Shown here piece by piece: positions 3,186 through 8,863 of a stretch of DNA of 13,451 bases. The notes beneath the pieces were generated by a model that had not been told where the DNA came from, made no database searches, and worked only from the letters and a program-made list of their open reading frames with translations. The stretch is from contig JAGAFH010000039.1 of the NCBI GenBank assembly GCA_017612755.1, forward strand, positions 1 through 13,451, read 5' to 3'. Position 1 is the first letter of the stretch, and every line of letters begins with the position of its first letter. The DNA comes from Clostridiales bacterium (GTDB lineage: Bacteria > Bacillota > Clostridia > Saccharofermentanales > Saccharofermentanaceae). Position numbers and translations under genes: made by a program.

Positions 3186-5327
3186 ATGTTCAGTAACAAC
3201 ACCATCGTTTTAGTGGTCGTGTTAGGTGTGTGTTTTCTGGCTATGGCATACATTTTTGCCAACTTCTTCAAGATCAAGAAGATGCCTGAAGGTACACCTG
3301 ATATGATCGAACTTTCCGGGATCATCCGTTCCGGTTCCGTTACATTCCTTAAGACGGAATTCAAAGGTATCATTGCTGTAGTCGCATCTCTCGCTCTGGT
3401 CTTCACGCTTTTCATCGAGAAGACATCAGGTATCACGTTTATTGTAGGTGCTGCCATGAGTTCTGCGGTATGTGTTCTCGGTATGAGATCTGCTACTTAT
3501 GCAAATGTCCGCACTTCCAACAAAGCGCGTGAGACACTTTCCATCGGTGAGACAGTTAAGGTCGCTCTCTGCGGCGGCTCCATCAGCGGTCTTGCAGTTC
3601 AGGCCTTCGGTATGCTGGGACTTGTCTGTATCCTTCTCATCAGCGGCGTTAAGCACGATGCAACAGGATCAGGTGTTCTTATAAATCTCCAGTGTAATCC
3701 CACCATCATGAGGATATCCACATATTCCCTCGGATGCTCTATCGTTGCTATGTTCAACCGTGTTGCAGGTGGTAACTACACTAAGGCTGCAGACATATCT
3801 TCCGATATCCTTGGTAAGATCCGTCATGACCTTCCTGAGGATGACAGCCGTATCCCTAACACCATCGCTGACTTCATCGGTGATAATGTTAACGATATCG
3901 CAGGTAACTGCTCCGACCTTCTGGAGAGCTTTGTAGCTACCATGGCAGCTACGATCATGATCGCTGTTACCCTTTACCAGACAGCTATCCACGCTGAAAA
4001 CGAGAGTATCTCTGAGACAACATTCAATGCCACGATAATATTCCCGATCATCCTTGCCTGTGCAGGCCTTATCGGATGCCTTATCGGTCTTGGTATCGCC
4101 AACTTTAAGAAGATGAGCGACAACCCTTCCAAGGAACTGGATCTTGCTACCTGGATCTCTGCAGGTATCACGATCGTTCTTGGCGGAGCTGCCTGCTATC
4201 TGCTCTTCGGCGGTATGGACCTTTATGATGAGTTCAAGTTCGGATGGGTATCCCCCTGGATCTCTTCCATCTGCGGTATCGTATCAGGCGTTGCCATTGG
4301 TATGATCACCGAATATTACACTTCCACAGAATATACTCCTACAAGGGAGCTGGCTGAGATCTGCCCTGAGGGTGAGGCTTTCGTAGTTACGAAGGGTGAT
4401 GCCATCGGATCAAGATCCTGTCTTTTCCCCATCCTTATCATCGGTGTGGCTCTTGTAGTTTCCGGATTCATCTGCGGTATCTACGGTATCGCCGTATCTG
4501 CTCTTGGAATGCTGGCATTCGTTGGAGCTACAGTTTCCATCGACGCCTTCGGACCTATCGCCGATAATGCCGGCGGACTTTCCGAGGCCTGCCACCTTCC
4601 TCCCGAAGTACGTCAGATCACAGATAAGCTGGATGCTGTAGGTAACACAACAGCTGCTATCGGTAAGGGCTTTGCTATCGGATCTGCCGCTTTCGCTACA
4701 GTTTCCCTCATAGTCGCTTATGTAGGTAACTATTCCGAGGTGGGTGCTGAACTTACACTTAACTTCGCTTCCTTCGTAGTCGTTGCCGGCGGCCTTATCG
4801 GTGGTGCTCTTGTAGAGTACTTCAGTGCTATGCTTACTGATAACACCATCGATGCAGCCAAGATCATGGCTGATGTGGGAGACAAGCAGATGACTGATGA
4901 AGTCCTTGCAGGCAAGGCTAAGCCCGATTACAACATGATGATCGAGATGGCAACCCGTGAGGCTATCAAGAGAATGGTAGTTCCTTCGCTTCTCGCCATC
5001 GTTATCCCCATCGTGGGCGGCCTTATGTTTGGCGTACAGTTCGTAGGCGGACTTCTCGTCGGCGCAACGATCGTTGCGATCCCCAGAGCTATCTTCATGG
5101 GTAACTCCGGAGGTGCTTTTGATAATGCCAAGAAGTATATCGAGAGTGAGCAGCTGGAAGGCCACAGCAAGGGATCAGCAGCCCACAAGGCATCCGTTAC
5201 AGGTGACACCATCGGTGACACACGTAAGGACGTTGTAGGCGTTGCCCTTGATATCTTCATCAAGATGATGTCAACAGTTGCCAACACTCTTGCTCCTATC
5301 ATCAGGAACATCAGCCTTTTTAAGTAA
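3186..5327 (+). CDS. hppA: Membrane-bound ion-translocating pyrophosphatase (K+-dependent, probably Na+ type), divergent
   Basis: The enzyme hydrolyses cytoplasmic pyrophosphate to pump Na+ or H+ across the membrane. The 713-residue hydrophobic protein has about 16 membrane helices, the normal size. Visible motifs are TKAAD (199-203), PEDD (217-220), IADFIGDNVND (227-237), SDLLES (243-248), DAFGPIADNAGG (453-464), GNTTAAIGKG (487-496), GGAFDNAKKY (642-651) and the D678/K681/D682 cluster. Ala490, where K+-independent enzymes carry Lys, points to K+ dependence. The Glu in SDLLES is the position used by Na+ pumps. Aligned by motif to the plant enzyme, gate residues R192, D244 and K693 are kept. 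Deviations: the signature DVGADLVGKVE reads DISSDILGKIR (203-213, final Glu to Arg), and the C-terminal KDTSGPALN reads KDVVGVALD (681-689). The start is fixed by AGGAGG at 3175-3180. It forms a single-gene transcription unit between two terminators. Na+ versus H+ specificity is inferred. Confidence 0.92.
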   Translation: MFSNNTIVLVVVLGVCFLAMAYIFANFFKIKKMPEGTPDMIELSGIIRSGSVTFLKTEFKGIIAVVASLALVFTLFIEKTSGITFIVGAAMSSAVCVLGMRSATYANVRTSNKARETLSIGETVKVALCGGSISGLAVQAFGMLGLVCILLISGVKHDATGSGVLINLQCNPTIMRISTYSLGCSIVAMFNRVAGGNYTKAADISSDILGKIRHDLPEDDSRIPNTIADFIGDNVNDIAGNCSDLLESFVATMAATIMIAVTLYQTAIHAENESISETTFNATIIFPIILACAGLIGCLIGLGIANFKKMSDNPSKELDLATWISAGITIVLGGAACYLLFGGMDLYDEFKFGWVSPWISSICGIVSGVAIGMITEYYTSTEYTPTRELAEICPEGEAFVVTKGDAIGSRSCLFPILIIGVALVVSGFICGIYGIAVSALGMLAFVGATVSIDAFGPIADNAGGLSEACHLPPEVRQITDKLDAVGNTTAAIGKGFAIGSAAFATVSLIVAYVGNYSEVGAELTLNFASFVVVAGGLIGGALVEYFSAMLTDNTIDAAKIMADVGDKQMTDEVLAGKAKPDYNMMIEMATREAIKRMVVPSLLAIVIPIVGGLMFGVQFVGGLLVGATIVAIPRAIFMGNSGGAFDNAKKYIESEQLEGHSKGSAAHKASVTGDTIGDTRKDVVGVALDIFIKMMSTVANTLAPIIRNISLFK

Positions 5328-5350: not shown

Positions 5351-5380
5351 AGGGCTGTCCTTCGGGGCAGCCCTTTCTTT
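5351..5380 (+). terminator. Rho-independent terminator after the pyrophosphatase gene
   Basis: The arms 5351-5360 and 5365-5374 make a 10-bp stem (AGGGCTGTCC against GGGCAGCCCT, one T-G wobble) closed by a C(TTCG)G tetraloop. A T-rich tail, TTTCTTTAT, follows. It begins 23 bp past the stop codon and ends just before the 53-bp repeat array. Confidence 0.92.
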
Positions 5381-5389
5381 ATACTTGAA

Positions 5390-5573
5390 ATGTCCTTGCC
5401 TTAGTCTTGATAGGACATCTCCAGGGACATAAACCGCCTGAAATGTCCTAACTGATGTCTCGTCTGGACATCTACGAATACATAAACAGGTTAAAATGTC
5501 CAAGCGGGTGTCCTTCCAGGACATACATAAGTACAAAATTACCGAAATATTGCCCAATAAGATGTAACATCTA
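5390..5573. repeat. 53-bp-period tandem array of dyad-symmetric ATGTCC/GGACAT half-sites
   Basis: Three units start at 5390, 5443 and 5496, exactly 53 bp apart. Within a unit the half-sites lie at offsets 0, 12, 23 and 35. Offset 0 is ATGTCC in all three (5390, 5443, 5496). Offset 12 is TAGTCT, ATGTCT and GTGTCC. Offset 23 is GGACAT in all three (5413, 5466, 5519). Offset 35 is GGACAT, ATACAT and GTACAA. The four sites form a dyad centred on offset 20. Sequences between them are not conserved. A fourth, decayed unit starts at 5549 (ATTGCC) and contains a 13-bp palindrome, AGATGTAACATCT (5560-5572), with the same ATGT/ACAT cores. With the flanking terminator and promoter this fills the 311-bp gap 5328-5638; I find no coding sequence there. 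It looks like an array of protein-binding sites, possibly operators for the downstream GH2 gene; the binding protein is unknown. Confidence 0.88.
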
Positions 5574-5582
5574 TGAAACTTT

Positions 5583-5611
5583 TTGACGGAAAATATCTGC
5601 TAATATAAAAT
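5583..5611 (+). promoter_or_regulatory. Sigma-A-type promoter of the GH2-like gene
   Basis: TTGACG (5583-5588, 5/6) and TAAAAT (5606-5611, 5/6) are separated by 17 bp in an AT-rich tract. A start near 5618 gives a leader of about 20 nt, with AGGA at 5628-5631 seven nt before the ATG. The -35 lies 10 bp beyond the palindrome that ends the repeat array, so protein bound there could affect this promoter. Confidence 0.65.
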
Positions 5612-5638: not shown

Positions 5639-8600
5639 ATGAAATTTGAATATGCCAACGACGGCTTTTTACCTTATGAGTCGTTCGATTACATATATAA
5701 GGACAGGAAACTTCCGGAGTTCGGTCTTGTAGAATCTCCTTTCAGGAAGGAACTGTCTACATGGAAGTTCTTCCTTGCTCATTCTGAGGGGGAGATCCCT
5801 TTCGGTTTTGAGTCCCAGTCTTTTGACGATTCGGAGTGGGACCTTATAAATGTGCCTTCCACATGGCAGACGGAAGGATATGGTCTGCCCCAGAATCTTC
5901 TTTATAATTATCCTGAGGAACTTGAGAAGATAGCAAAAAGGGGAGAGGAGTCCATCAGTGACAAGCTCCTTCTCCATTCAAATGATGCAGATTCTGATGA
6001 GGTGGGAATATACAGGACCAGTGTTGTATTCTCCCCTGAGGATATAGACAGGGCTATTTATCTGGAGGTCTCCGGCATATGCGGAAGCTTCAACGTTTAT
6101 CTTAACGGCCAGCTTCAGACTGAATCCCATTCTGTCCTGACCCACAAAAGGCTCCTTCTTTCCAACAGTGCCAAGCCCGGTGTCAACCAGCTTGCCATCC
6201 TTGTCAACAGATGGGACAGGGACGGAAACGGAAAGATCATAAAGGAGATCATGAACTATGGCTTTTCCGGTATCTTCAGACCGGTCCATATAGTAACTGA
6301 ACCTCTTCTTGAGATCTCCAATCTTCACATAAAGATATCAGATGTCCCTGCAGCTTATGTAAACCAGCTTACCACGGATACTGCTACCGAGAAGAAGGCT
6401 ATGGCCAAGGTCACCAGAGGCGATTATATGGTCAAGGCTGATTTTAAGCTCAGAAATCACACTGACTATGTGATGCCTTATAACATCAAAGTCAGCATCG
6501 TAGAGGCCAGGGCTGAGTATGATCCGTACAAGATGCCCTATGCCAAGATAAATATCCAGTCCCAGGCTGGCGGTACCATTGACACCCACGAAACCATCAC
6601 GGATGCAGTTGAGCTGGTAGCTCTCGATGTGCTCCAGTGGTCTGATGCAACGCCTGTACAGTATGATCTGGTCCTTGAGCTTCTGGATTCCCAGGGCGGA
6701 GTCATATGTGCCAAGAAGAAGAGATTCGGATTCAGATCCGTCGAGATCATGCACGACAGATTCCATATCAATGACAGACCTGAGACATTAAAGCTGGTAA
6801 GGTATTTCGAGTTCGATCCTTCCGGCGGAATATGCGTTCCCATAGAGACATACAGACACGATATCATCCTGATGAAGAGATGCGGGATAAACGGCGTCAT
6901 AGGTCAGGGATTCCCTCTGAATGACGTATTCCTTAACCTTTGTGACCAGTATGGTATCTACGTTATTGCAGAGAGCGACAGAAGACTGATGACCGATTAT
7001 GTTGAGTCCTGTATGAACCATCCCTGTATCATCATGTGGGGGATGGGAAGTTACGGATTTGATGCTGTTAAGTGCGGCAAGGTCAAAGCTTCTCTTAAGG
7101 TCGTTGATGACACGAGACCCTGGTATGTTTCTACTGACTATGATCTTAAGGTATCGGATCTTGTTCCCATGCCCGGTGAGGCAGGTCTTGTATTCGGACC
7201 CTGGGAGGATCTGTGCTTGGACAGAAAGAGTTTATTCTCAAAGAATAAGACAGGTAATAACCTTTTCGATACAGTTCCCGGAAGAACAAGATTCCCGGAT
7301 GACATGGCTGATTACAAGTGGATCCACCATGCGGACCTTGTAGGCGGTAAGCAGAAAGAGAACAGCAGCATAGGGCAGGGCATCGTCAGCGCAGACAGGG
7401 ACCCCCATCCCATCTATCTTGATATAAGAAGACAATGCAGTGACATAAGCATCTTTGCTTCACAGGATGATCCTATGAACCTGACCCTTCGTAACCTTCA
7501 TCCTTTTGCCTACATCCCCGAGCTCGTCCTGGAATGGCGTATCCTTCTGGGAGGCAATACCGTTATGACAGGTAAGGGCAATATCAATGAGATAGAGCCT
7601 TACGGTACCAGGACCCTAAGATTCCCCATAGATTACGGAAGATATCTTGATGACGGTTGGGCCAACGGAAAGCCTGAACTAATAGAGATGTATATGAATT
7701 CCCTGTCTCATGAGATCGTTTTTGACGTCAGTCTCAAGCTGGCTTCCGACACTTATTATGCAAATGAGGGATTCGAGACGGCATTCTATCAGGATGTGCT
7801 GTCTGAGGAGTGCGGAAATCCTGTTTCACTTCGTAAAGATCCCGCCCTGGCTCCCGGCGATCCTTCTGTACCGGTACTGCCGGAGGGAGAGGTTTCCGAC
7901 GGCCTGACTACAGTAGTGGAGGATAACTCCCTTATAGGATTTCAGCCTGATACTGCATCTGAGATCAATGTTTCCGAGATAATCAACGGATTCGAGATAT
8001 TTGCCGTTCCTGAGGCTATCACTGTAGGCAATGATTCCATGAAGATATCATTTGACAGAAAGACCGGTTCTGTCAGCGGCATCAGGATCGGAGGAAGTGA
8101 TTTCCTCAAAGGAGGATTCCTTCCCAGCTTCTACCGCTGTCCGTCAAACATAGACAGGACAGACAGGAGCTTCGTCCTTGCCAAGACCATCTTCTCCAAG
8201 GAAAGCGACTATGAAGAGATCCAGAAGTCCCTTGAGTTCGTAGGTTCTTCCTATGGCGTTAAGGACGATGTTTTTACCTTCATATCAAGATATAAGTCTT
8301 TTGCCATGAAGGGGGAGATCGTAGTTGCATATGAAGTTCCTAAGTCTGATACTCTCAGGATCACTCTGGCCTTCACTCCCAGATATGACATGGTCCGCTA
8401 CGGTCTCCGCGTTCATGTGGTAAAGGATAATATGCTCTGTACCTGGTACGGAAGAGGCCCCGGTGAATCCTATTATGACAGAAAGAATGCCACCAGGTTC
8501 GGCCTTTATACTGCCGGAGCAGATAAGATATACCATCCTTATGCAAGGCCTTCCGAGAACAGTTCCCATACTGATACAAAGGCTATGCAGCTCTACTCCG

Positions 8601-8863
8601 GCCTGGGAGATATCTTAAGGTTTACGAGAGGAAAGGGAAATACTGACAGCGACAGGTTCGAGTTCACGGTGCTGCCCTTTACCCCTGAGCAGATGAATGA
8701 ATATCTTCATGAGGAGCTTCTCATGCAGAACGACTTCTGCGAGCTGTTTATAGACTTCTGTTCAAAGGAGATCGAGAGAACGGGAAACAATATAACGAAT
8801 CTTCCTCTGAAGAAAAATGTGGAATACAGGGAGACGATGGAACTTAAGCTTATCAAGGGCTGA
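5639..8863 (+). CDS. Glycoside hydrolase family 2 (LacZ-like) protein lacking catalytic residues, probable pseudoenzyme
   Basis: The 1074 residues follow the long beta-galactosidase layout. There is a jelly-roll sugar-binding domain (about 35-220; VPSTWQTEGY, SGIFR), Ig-like domains (about 225-375), a TIM barrel (about 380-570), a further Ig domain (to about 720), and the beta-galactosidase small-chain domain (about 785-1072; WYGRGPGESYYDRK at 936-949, SSHTDT). Homology is therefore secure. Aligned to E. coli LacZ by motif, H357 becomes G424, Mg ligands E416 and H418 become R449 and M451, and N460 and acid/base E461 become S471 and Y472 (WGMGSYG in place of WSLGNES). The CEYAHAMGNS nucleophile motif and WDWVDQ are unrecognisable. 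No stop or frameshift interrupts the gene, so it is probably kept for a non-catalytic role such as carbohydrate binding. No signal peptide is seen, which suggests a cytoplasmic protein. It converges on rluF, with 2 nt between stop codons. A different catalytic site cannot be excluded. Confidence 0.9.
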   Translation: MKFEYANDGFLPYESFDYIYKDRKLPEFGLVESPFRKELSTWKFFLAHSEGEIPFGFESQSFDDSEWDLINVPSTWQTEGYGLPQNLLYNYPEELEKIAKRGEESISDKLLLHSNDADSDEVGIYRTSVVFSPEDIDRAIYLEVSGICGSFNVYLNGQLQTESHSVLTHKRLLLSNSAKPGVNQLAILVNRWDRDGNGKIIKEIMNYGFSGIFRPVHIVTEPLLEISNLHIKISDVPAAYVNQLTTDTATEKKAMAKVTRGDYMVKADFKLRNHTDYVMPYNIKVSIVEARAEYDPYKMPYAKINIQSQAGGTIDTHETITDAVELVALDVLQWSDATPVQYDLVLELLDSQGGVICAKKKRFGFRSVEIMHDRFHINDRPETLKLVRYFEFDPSGGICVPIETYRHDIILMKRCGINGVIGQGFPLNDVFLNLCDQYGIYVIAESDRRLMTDYVESCMNHPCIIMWGMGSYGFDAVKCGKVKASLKVVDDTRPWYVSTDYDLKVSDLVPMPGEAGLVFGPWEDLCLDRKSLFSKNKTGNNLFDTVPGRTRFPDDMADYKWIHHADLVGGKQKENSSIGQGIVSADRDPHPIYLDIRRQCSDISIFASQDDPMNLTLRNLHPFAYIPELVLEWRILLGGNTVMTGKGNINEIEPYGTRTLRFPIDYGRYLDDGWANGKPELIEMYMNSLSHEIVFDVSLKLASDTYYANEGFETAFYQDVLSEECGNPVSLRKDPALAPGDPSVPVLPEGEVSDGLTTVVEDNSLIGFQPDTASEINVSEIINGFEIFAVPEAITVGNDSMKISFDRKTGSVSGIRIGGSDFLKGGFLPSFYRCPSNIDRTDRSFVLAKTIFSKESDYEEIQKSLEFVGSSYGVKDDVFTFISRYKSFAMKGEIVVAYEVPKSDTLRITLAFTPRYDMVRYGLRVHVVKDNMLCTWYGRGPGESYYDRKNATRFGLYTAGADKIYHPYARPSENSSHTDTKAMQLYSGLGDILRFTRGKGNTDSDRFEFTVLPFTPEQMNEYLHEELLMQNDFCELFIDFCSKEIERTGNNITNLPLKKNVEYRETMELKLIKG

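Follow-up and report, generated by a model that had tools for sequence, protein, structure and literature searches.

Extragenic palindrome arrays with conserved geometry and variable words in a genus of Clostridia

The window analysed here, a stretch of 13,451 nucleotides from a Clostridiales bacterium assembly (GCA_017612755.1, contig JAGAFH010000039.1), carries a short palindromic array between two forward-strand genes. The upstream gene (3186..5327; 713 aa, stop codon ending at 5327) is membrane pyrophosphatase (hppA)-like, as judged from its sequence. The downstream open reading frame (5639..8863; 1074 aa) was named GH2-like in the initial annotation, and the best-matching records of its product come from Clostridia assemblies, several of them from rumen or gut and one from a Saccharofermentans sp. 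A repetitive ORF at 2-2113, surface-protein-like by eye, is truncated by the left edge of the window. The array is preceded by a terminator-like hairpin with an imperfect stem and a T-rich tail, 3' of the hppA-like gene (5352..5379, forward strand), and followed by a promoter-like block of the GH2-like gene (TTGACG ... TATAAA; 5583..5609, forward strand). Both were read by eye and agree with the terminator and promoter initially placed on either side of the array; the hairpin is without a flag in a strict test for perfect-stem terminators.

The array itself consists of three 41-bp dyad units, at 5390..5430 (ATGTCC / TAGTCT / GGACAT / GGACAT), 5443..5483 (ATGTCC / ATGTCT / GGACAT / ATACAT) and 5496..5536 (ATGTCC / GTGTCC / GGACAT / GTACAA). 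Two 12-bp linkers read from the sequence (5431..5442 and 5484..5495) separate them. Against the template ATGTCC-N6-ATGTCC-N5-GGACAT-N6-GGACAT, which has 24 half-site bases, each unit scores 21/24, compared with a best of 18 among 60 copies of the window generated by an order-1 Markov model; three units spaced 53 bp apart together score 63, where the same copies reach 37 at most. These scores confirm the dyad of two direct and two inverted half-sites as well as the exact 53-bp phase of its copies at 5390, 5443 and 5496. The last recognisable half-site ends at 5536, short of the extent to 5573 first proposed. Decay is evident at site 2 of unit 1 (TAGTCT) and at site 4 of units 2 (ATACAT) and 3 (GTACAA), and the window array has the look of a partly degraded copy.

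The same genome (1.83 Mb in 240 contigs, 70% complete) holds a second ATGTCC array, found by pattern search on contig C49 at 516, 569 and 622, exactly 53 bp apart. Its units score 23, 23 and 22 of 24 and are thus better preserved than those of the window. Within the window array conservation is indeed limited to the half-sites, as initially stated; this does not extend to the C49 array, whose units have spacer and linker sequence in common with window unit 1, including a near-exact counterpart of linker 1. Since CTCCAGGGACATAAACCGC is common to the C49 array and window unit 1, the whole 53-bp unit has been repeated. The linker used as a genome-wide probe finds three places, two of which are the known arrays. 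A sequence-only model detects ATGTCC units in 2 of 83 genomes (six units in this genome and one in G033), and a pattern search recovers the same units in 2 of 148 genomes. Two units of other words come after the G033 unit at 4329, TTACCC/TTGCYC at exactly +53 and TTGCCC/TTACCC at exactly +106. Comparison of the C49 array (L009:505-670), the sole array compared, with phages and plasmids gave no blastn match, and a phage or plasmid origin was rejected for it.

An operator of the GH2-like gene, the role first suggested for the array, can be rejected. A close relative that also has this gene pair (L011; GH2-like protein 82% identical) keeps the promoter block and lacks the array. The sequence at this slot is the same at L163 (G009; 98% over the hppA C-terminus), which probably represents the same species. 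The position of loci beside gene 3' ends and the many words built on one architecture, both described below, argue against the operator as well. The initial annotation had named a dispersed transposable element as evidence that would speak against its own reading: the repeat is indeed dispersed, though no classical transposable element was found.

The window array belongs to a wider class of palindrome arrays that lie outside genes in this genus. Geometry and phase are kept, whereas words differ between arrays and species; within a unit the word copies mostly match. Each unit combines a short word, 6 to about 11 bp long, with inverted copies of it, and doubling of the word at 12 (or 11) bp is frequent among the arrays. 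The reversed control of the ATGTCC pattern search matched 9 places in four same-genus genomes, where chance would give about 0.07 in 350 Mb. These matches are TNCAGG dyads whose spacing is again 12/11/12, and they form 63- or 64-bp arrays. In G003 a 13/26-bp GTGCAGCTA tandem repeat adjoins a TNCAGG array (L060 3316-3378).

Because of the TNCAGG dyads and the mixed-word array of G033, genomes were scanned blind to the word, for any four matched hexamers at offset d and centre gap m, with 36 as the highest score, in stretches taken irrespective of their content. At a score of at least 32 and d=12, the scan gave 6 matches in 301 kb of the contigs of this genome, 13 in 600 kb of G016 and 4 in 183 kb of G004, compared with none in 250 kb of E. 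coli and 1 in 359 kb of 20 other genera of the class (21 per Mb in the genus samples versus 1.6 in controls, p 0.0003). The 12-bp offset stands out in these three genus samples, with 23 dyads against a mean of 0.8 for fourteen other offsets between 7 and 21 (about 29-fold). No dyad at this score arises when 383 kb of G016 and G004 are simulated by an order-2 Markov model. Matches are clustered in G016, with 12 of 13 in the first 200 kb sampled. No 12-bp dyad reached a score of 32 in 167 kb of three further genomes of the genus (G001, G005, G031) or in 145 kb of five genomes from other families of the order. Array density varies among genomes; G031, scan-negative in the stretches sampled, has one array behind hppA. 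A looser scan for word clusters does not separate the genus (18 to 55 clusters per Mb, against 36 in class controls and 16 in E. coli), and the evidence is that of the four-half-site scan, other arrays having been read by eye. Tandem inverted-word arrays are also seen in less related Clostridia (L013 7508-7687, L016 3309-3460 and L018 3223-3500, with periods of 51, 52 and 83), where the spacers are conserved too; they may be a young stage of the class or ordinary tandem repeats.

The variety of words is considerable even within one genome. In addition to the two ATGTCC loci, that of the window contains arrays built on ATGGCC (C17), AATGCC (C19), TTTTGC/TCCGCA (C8) and ATTTCC (C23, at offset 11), together with a singly inverted word, TGTCCGACTA, on C21. 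TTGACC occurs in 11 units at four loci (C16, C93, C126 and C228), at a 63-bp phase and without mismatch in six of the units. Their word columns are conserved at 97%, their spacers at 70% and their linker at 55%, which bears out the initial view that words and spacing are kept and spacers are free. Over 391 genomes of the class, the TTGACC pattern matches in this genome and at one place in G321. Transition forms exist, such as ATGGCC/GTGGCC/GGCCAC/GGACAT on C17 and TTGCCC-TTGACC-GGTCAA-GGGCAA on C228. Words of G016 are GTCTCC, GTCGCT, GTCACT, GTCGTT and TGTCGC, and those of same-genus genomes include GTCTCC, GTCGCT, TNCAGG, TCCGAC and GTCCGT. Extragenic palindromic repeats are known as a kind; a limited literature search found no account of palindrome arrays that keep their geometry and are free in their words.

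All 11 loci of the window's genome adjoin the 3' end of a predicted gene; at one locus of G016 (L083) the placement relative to genes is uncertain. Under the strict test, 8 of 18 loci have a perfect-stem terminator in the interval from gene to array. In other species, arrays of different words occupy orthologous slots, as judged from scan-flagged arrays read by eye in the best 30 loci of each search, from 67 and 54 matching genomes. Behind hppA these are TTGTGGC (L176), TCCGAC (L181), TTTTGC (L190) and TTTTGG (L191), at 4 of 29 other loci. Behind an HPF-like gene, where the window's genome has a TTGACC array, 5 of 29 other loci have AATGGA (L268), GTCCGT (L270), ATAGAA (L272), CTCTGT (L273) and TACTGT (L277). 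The start of a presumably IS110-like transposase occupies the hppA slot at L172 (G006) where other species have arrays. The L268 and L273 arrays are homologues that align over 64 bp at 75% identity (E about 1e-6). Of their 16 differences, 6 lie in the three word copies and amount to one concerted change: from L268 to L273, TCCATT becomes TCTGTT and both AATGGA copies become AACAGA.

The initial annotation placed the sites at whole turns of the helix, and array periods point the same way. Twenty-five of them (50-53, 60-64, 72-74, 83 and 106) fit best to whole multiples of about 10.35 bp, and, with the turn length allowed to vary between 8 and 14 bp, none of 5000 random sets achieves an equally good fit. 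This result is a guide only, as the arrays were chosen by hand, some share ancestry and the random sets, which span 49-84, do not cover the period of 106. The Rayleigh strength is equal or higher at 10.6-11 bp, yet the phase there is not near zero. Whole-turn phasing points to double-stranded DNA.

Several known systems resemble these arrays in part. According to published accounts (PMC2817692, PMC3733652), REP sequences and BIMEs are short imperfect extragenic palindromes by gene 3' ends, clustered and in alternating orientation. The present arrays are likewise extragenic palindromes beside gene ends, at each of the 11 loci noted above. They differ in that the GTAG or CGTC end tag, sought within 12 bp outside either palindrome end, is missing in 35 of 36 units (one has CGTC); GTAG occurs inside the loop of some TTGACC units. 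REP sequences usually exceed 100 copies per genome, against 11 TTGACC and 6 ATGTCC units in this 70% complete genome, a low copy number for each word, and here words vary while geometry stays. The Y1 transposase domain PF01797 was detected in 3 of 12 genomes searched (that of the window, G033 and G006) and is absent in the array carriers G016 and G004 (both 99% complete) and G003, G031, G032, G049 and G084. A Y1-transposase-driven REP system was therefore rejected as the driver in G016 and G004, which have no Y1 gene; moreover, the repeats around Y1 genes are different. On C137 of the window's genome (L022 2200-3500) a Y1-transposase gene lies between inverted GGGGAC-type repeats, similar repeats are found at the left end of C49 (L009 1-80), and the Y1 gene of G033 (L112) is next to a GGGGACGGTTCTGTTTTGTCAC palindrome. 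These repeats look like ordinary REP-type sequences, unlike the dyads.

Integron attC sites, as described in PMC2727003, are folded sites poor in conserved sequence and conserved in structure, with two stems, an unpaired central spacer between them and a variable end loop. The present arrays, which may fold as well, resemble them in keeping structure over sequence. AAC/GTT outer boxes are found in 0 of 36 units here, no cassettes lie between units, and the direct word copies are equal. CRISPR arrays are likewise regular repeats with fixed-length, freely varying spacers; they have near-identical direct repeats of about 24-48 bp, whereas the arrays read here conserve only 6-11 bp words, which occur in both orientations. 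Repeat-induced point mutation in Neurospora, with its interspersed homology (see PMC4858203), likewise involves short matched words that are spaced by about one helical turn, the sequence in between being free. It offers an analogy only: the process is fungal and acts on direct homology between long repeats, and nothing here shows pairing between arrays. At the Rfam gathering score, seven sources gave one match, a tRNA in L063 away from the array; a known RNA family was thus rejected for the arrays.

Agreement among the four words of a unit provides some evidence of folding. Where two of the copies have one base in a column and the other two another, the division is nested (the two outer copies alike, the two inner copies alike) in 10 of 18 columns (p 0.04, post hoc), and in 10 of 12 outside the CAGG family; a further nested column, at L270:1252, is additional to the 18. 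In five of these ten the inner copies have G at word position 1, and a preference tied to position could account for them. When the nested hairpin is written on the strand of the gene before the array, its mispairs are G-T in 21 cases and A-C in 6 (46 units); counting by locus leaves only about 7 to 3 (p 0.34). Watson-Crick pairs number 591 of 660 in the nested register and 577 of 660 in the crossed one, which is nearly as good, as expected when all four words are equal. The six-base spacers show little pairing except in the TTGACC and CAGG families, and one hairpin does not account for two direct word copies being equal. The lists of 60, 55 and 51 units that were used are hand-drawn from scan matches, non-exhaustive and somewhat different from one another.

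One architecture with many words, even in one genome, is not what a single sequence-specific protein would leave. Given the folding evidence and the whole-turn phasing, the explanation that we tentatively prefer is that the palindromes are kept matched by their own complementarity, as a cruciform or a single-strand hairpin, and are read by shape. It is favoured by words that vary while geometry is constant, the concerted change between L268 and L273, the nested splits, the G-T mispairs on the gene strand and the whole-turn periods. Selection would act on mutual complementarity, so that a unit could fold in either form, and a hypothetical chromosome-binding or replication-fork factor would read the folded shape from one helix face, ignoring the word. 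Words would then change by compensatory steps, and units would multiply through tandem duplication at a locus and occasionally reach new loci. Next comes the idea that DNA-binding proteins (several paralogues, or a single one of rapidly shifting specificity) use the words as half-sites and bind them cooperatively on one helix face. This keeps the initial interpretation without its operator role, and such sites might organise or insulate DNA behind genes. Whole-turn phasing, four equal half-sites and free spacers are the expected trace of cooperative binding, and the TTGACC word is conserved across its 11 units at four loci. Against this, a single genome, as far as it was sampled, has at least six words and would require as many specificities, and orthologous slots have other words in other species, which leaves this account rather less plausible.

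Hairpins acting in RNA, at 3' ends or in intergenic transcripts, for stability, processing or as small RNA, would account for the nested agreement and for the excess of G-T over A-C on the gene strand. The first 20 units fold better than mononucleotide shuffles, a partly circular comparison as inverted words were selected. Such a role appears unlikely: at the 8 of 18 loci with a terminator between gene and array it would need read-through, whole-turn phasing is a property of B-DNA, and no Rfam family matches. It is slightly more doubtful still that the units are mobile, non-autonomous REP-like elements moved by an unrecognised enzyme, with a mover for each word family and the palindrome as its substrate. 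Presence or absence between close relatives and the spread of TTGACC to four loci and ATGTCC to two suit mobility. The lack of the Y1 transposase in G016, G004 and five further carriers (some of them incomplete genomes), the different repeats that flank the Y1 genes of the window's genome and G033, the low copy number and the C49 array without phage or plasmid match do not. Template switching is known to correct quasi-palindromes. It could homogenise words of functionless arrays built by slippage, in keeping with the fast turnover of arrays between species. Whole arms should then become homogeneous, yet spacers are mostly non-complementary, and neither whole-turn periods nor a single preferred 12-bp offset is predicted; we regard this explanation as very improbable.

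What seems to be maintained is the pattern and not the sequence. Since the arrays share spacing and internal matching and not sequence, the class escapes ordinary repeat finders and motif searches. If the palindromes are read by shape, a bacterial factor acts on phased palindromes regardless of their sequence, and the orthologous slots with different words constitute a natural experiment. If the words are instead sites for proteins, binding words would co-evolve unusually fast. It is conceivable, and we put this forward with a little more reserve than the reading by shape, that these are DNA elements defined by geometry alone, in which any word will serve provided that its copies match and lie whole turns apart, and that a shape-reading or self-pairing system maintains them behind genes. 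Words would then swap freely while a three-dimensional pattern is inherited.
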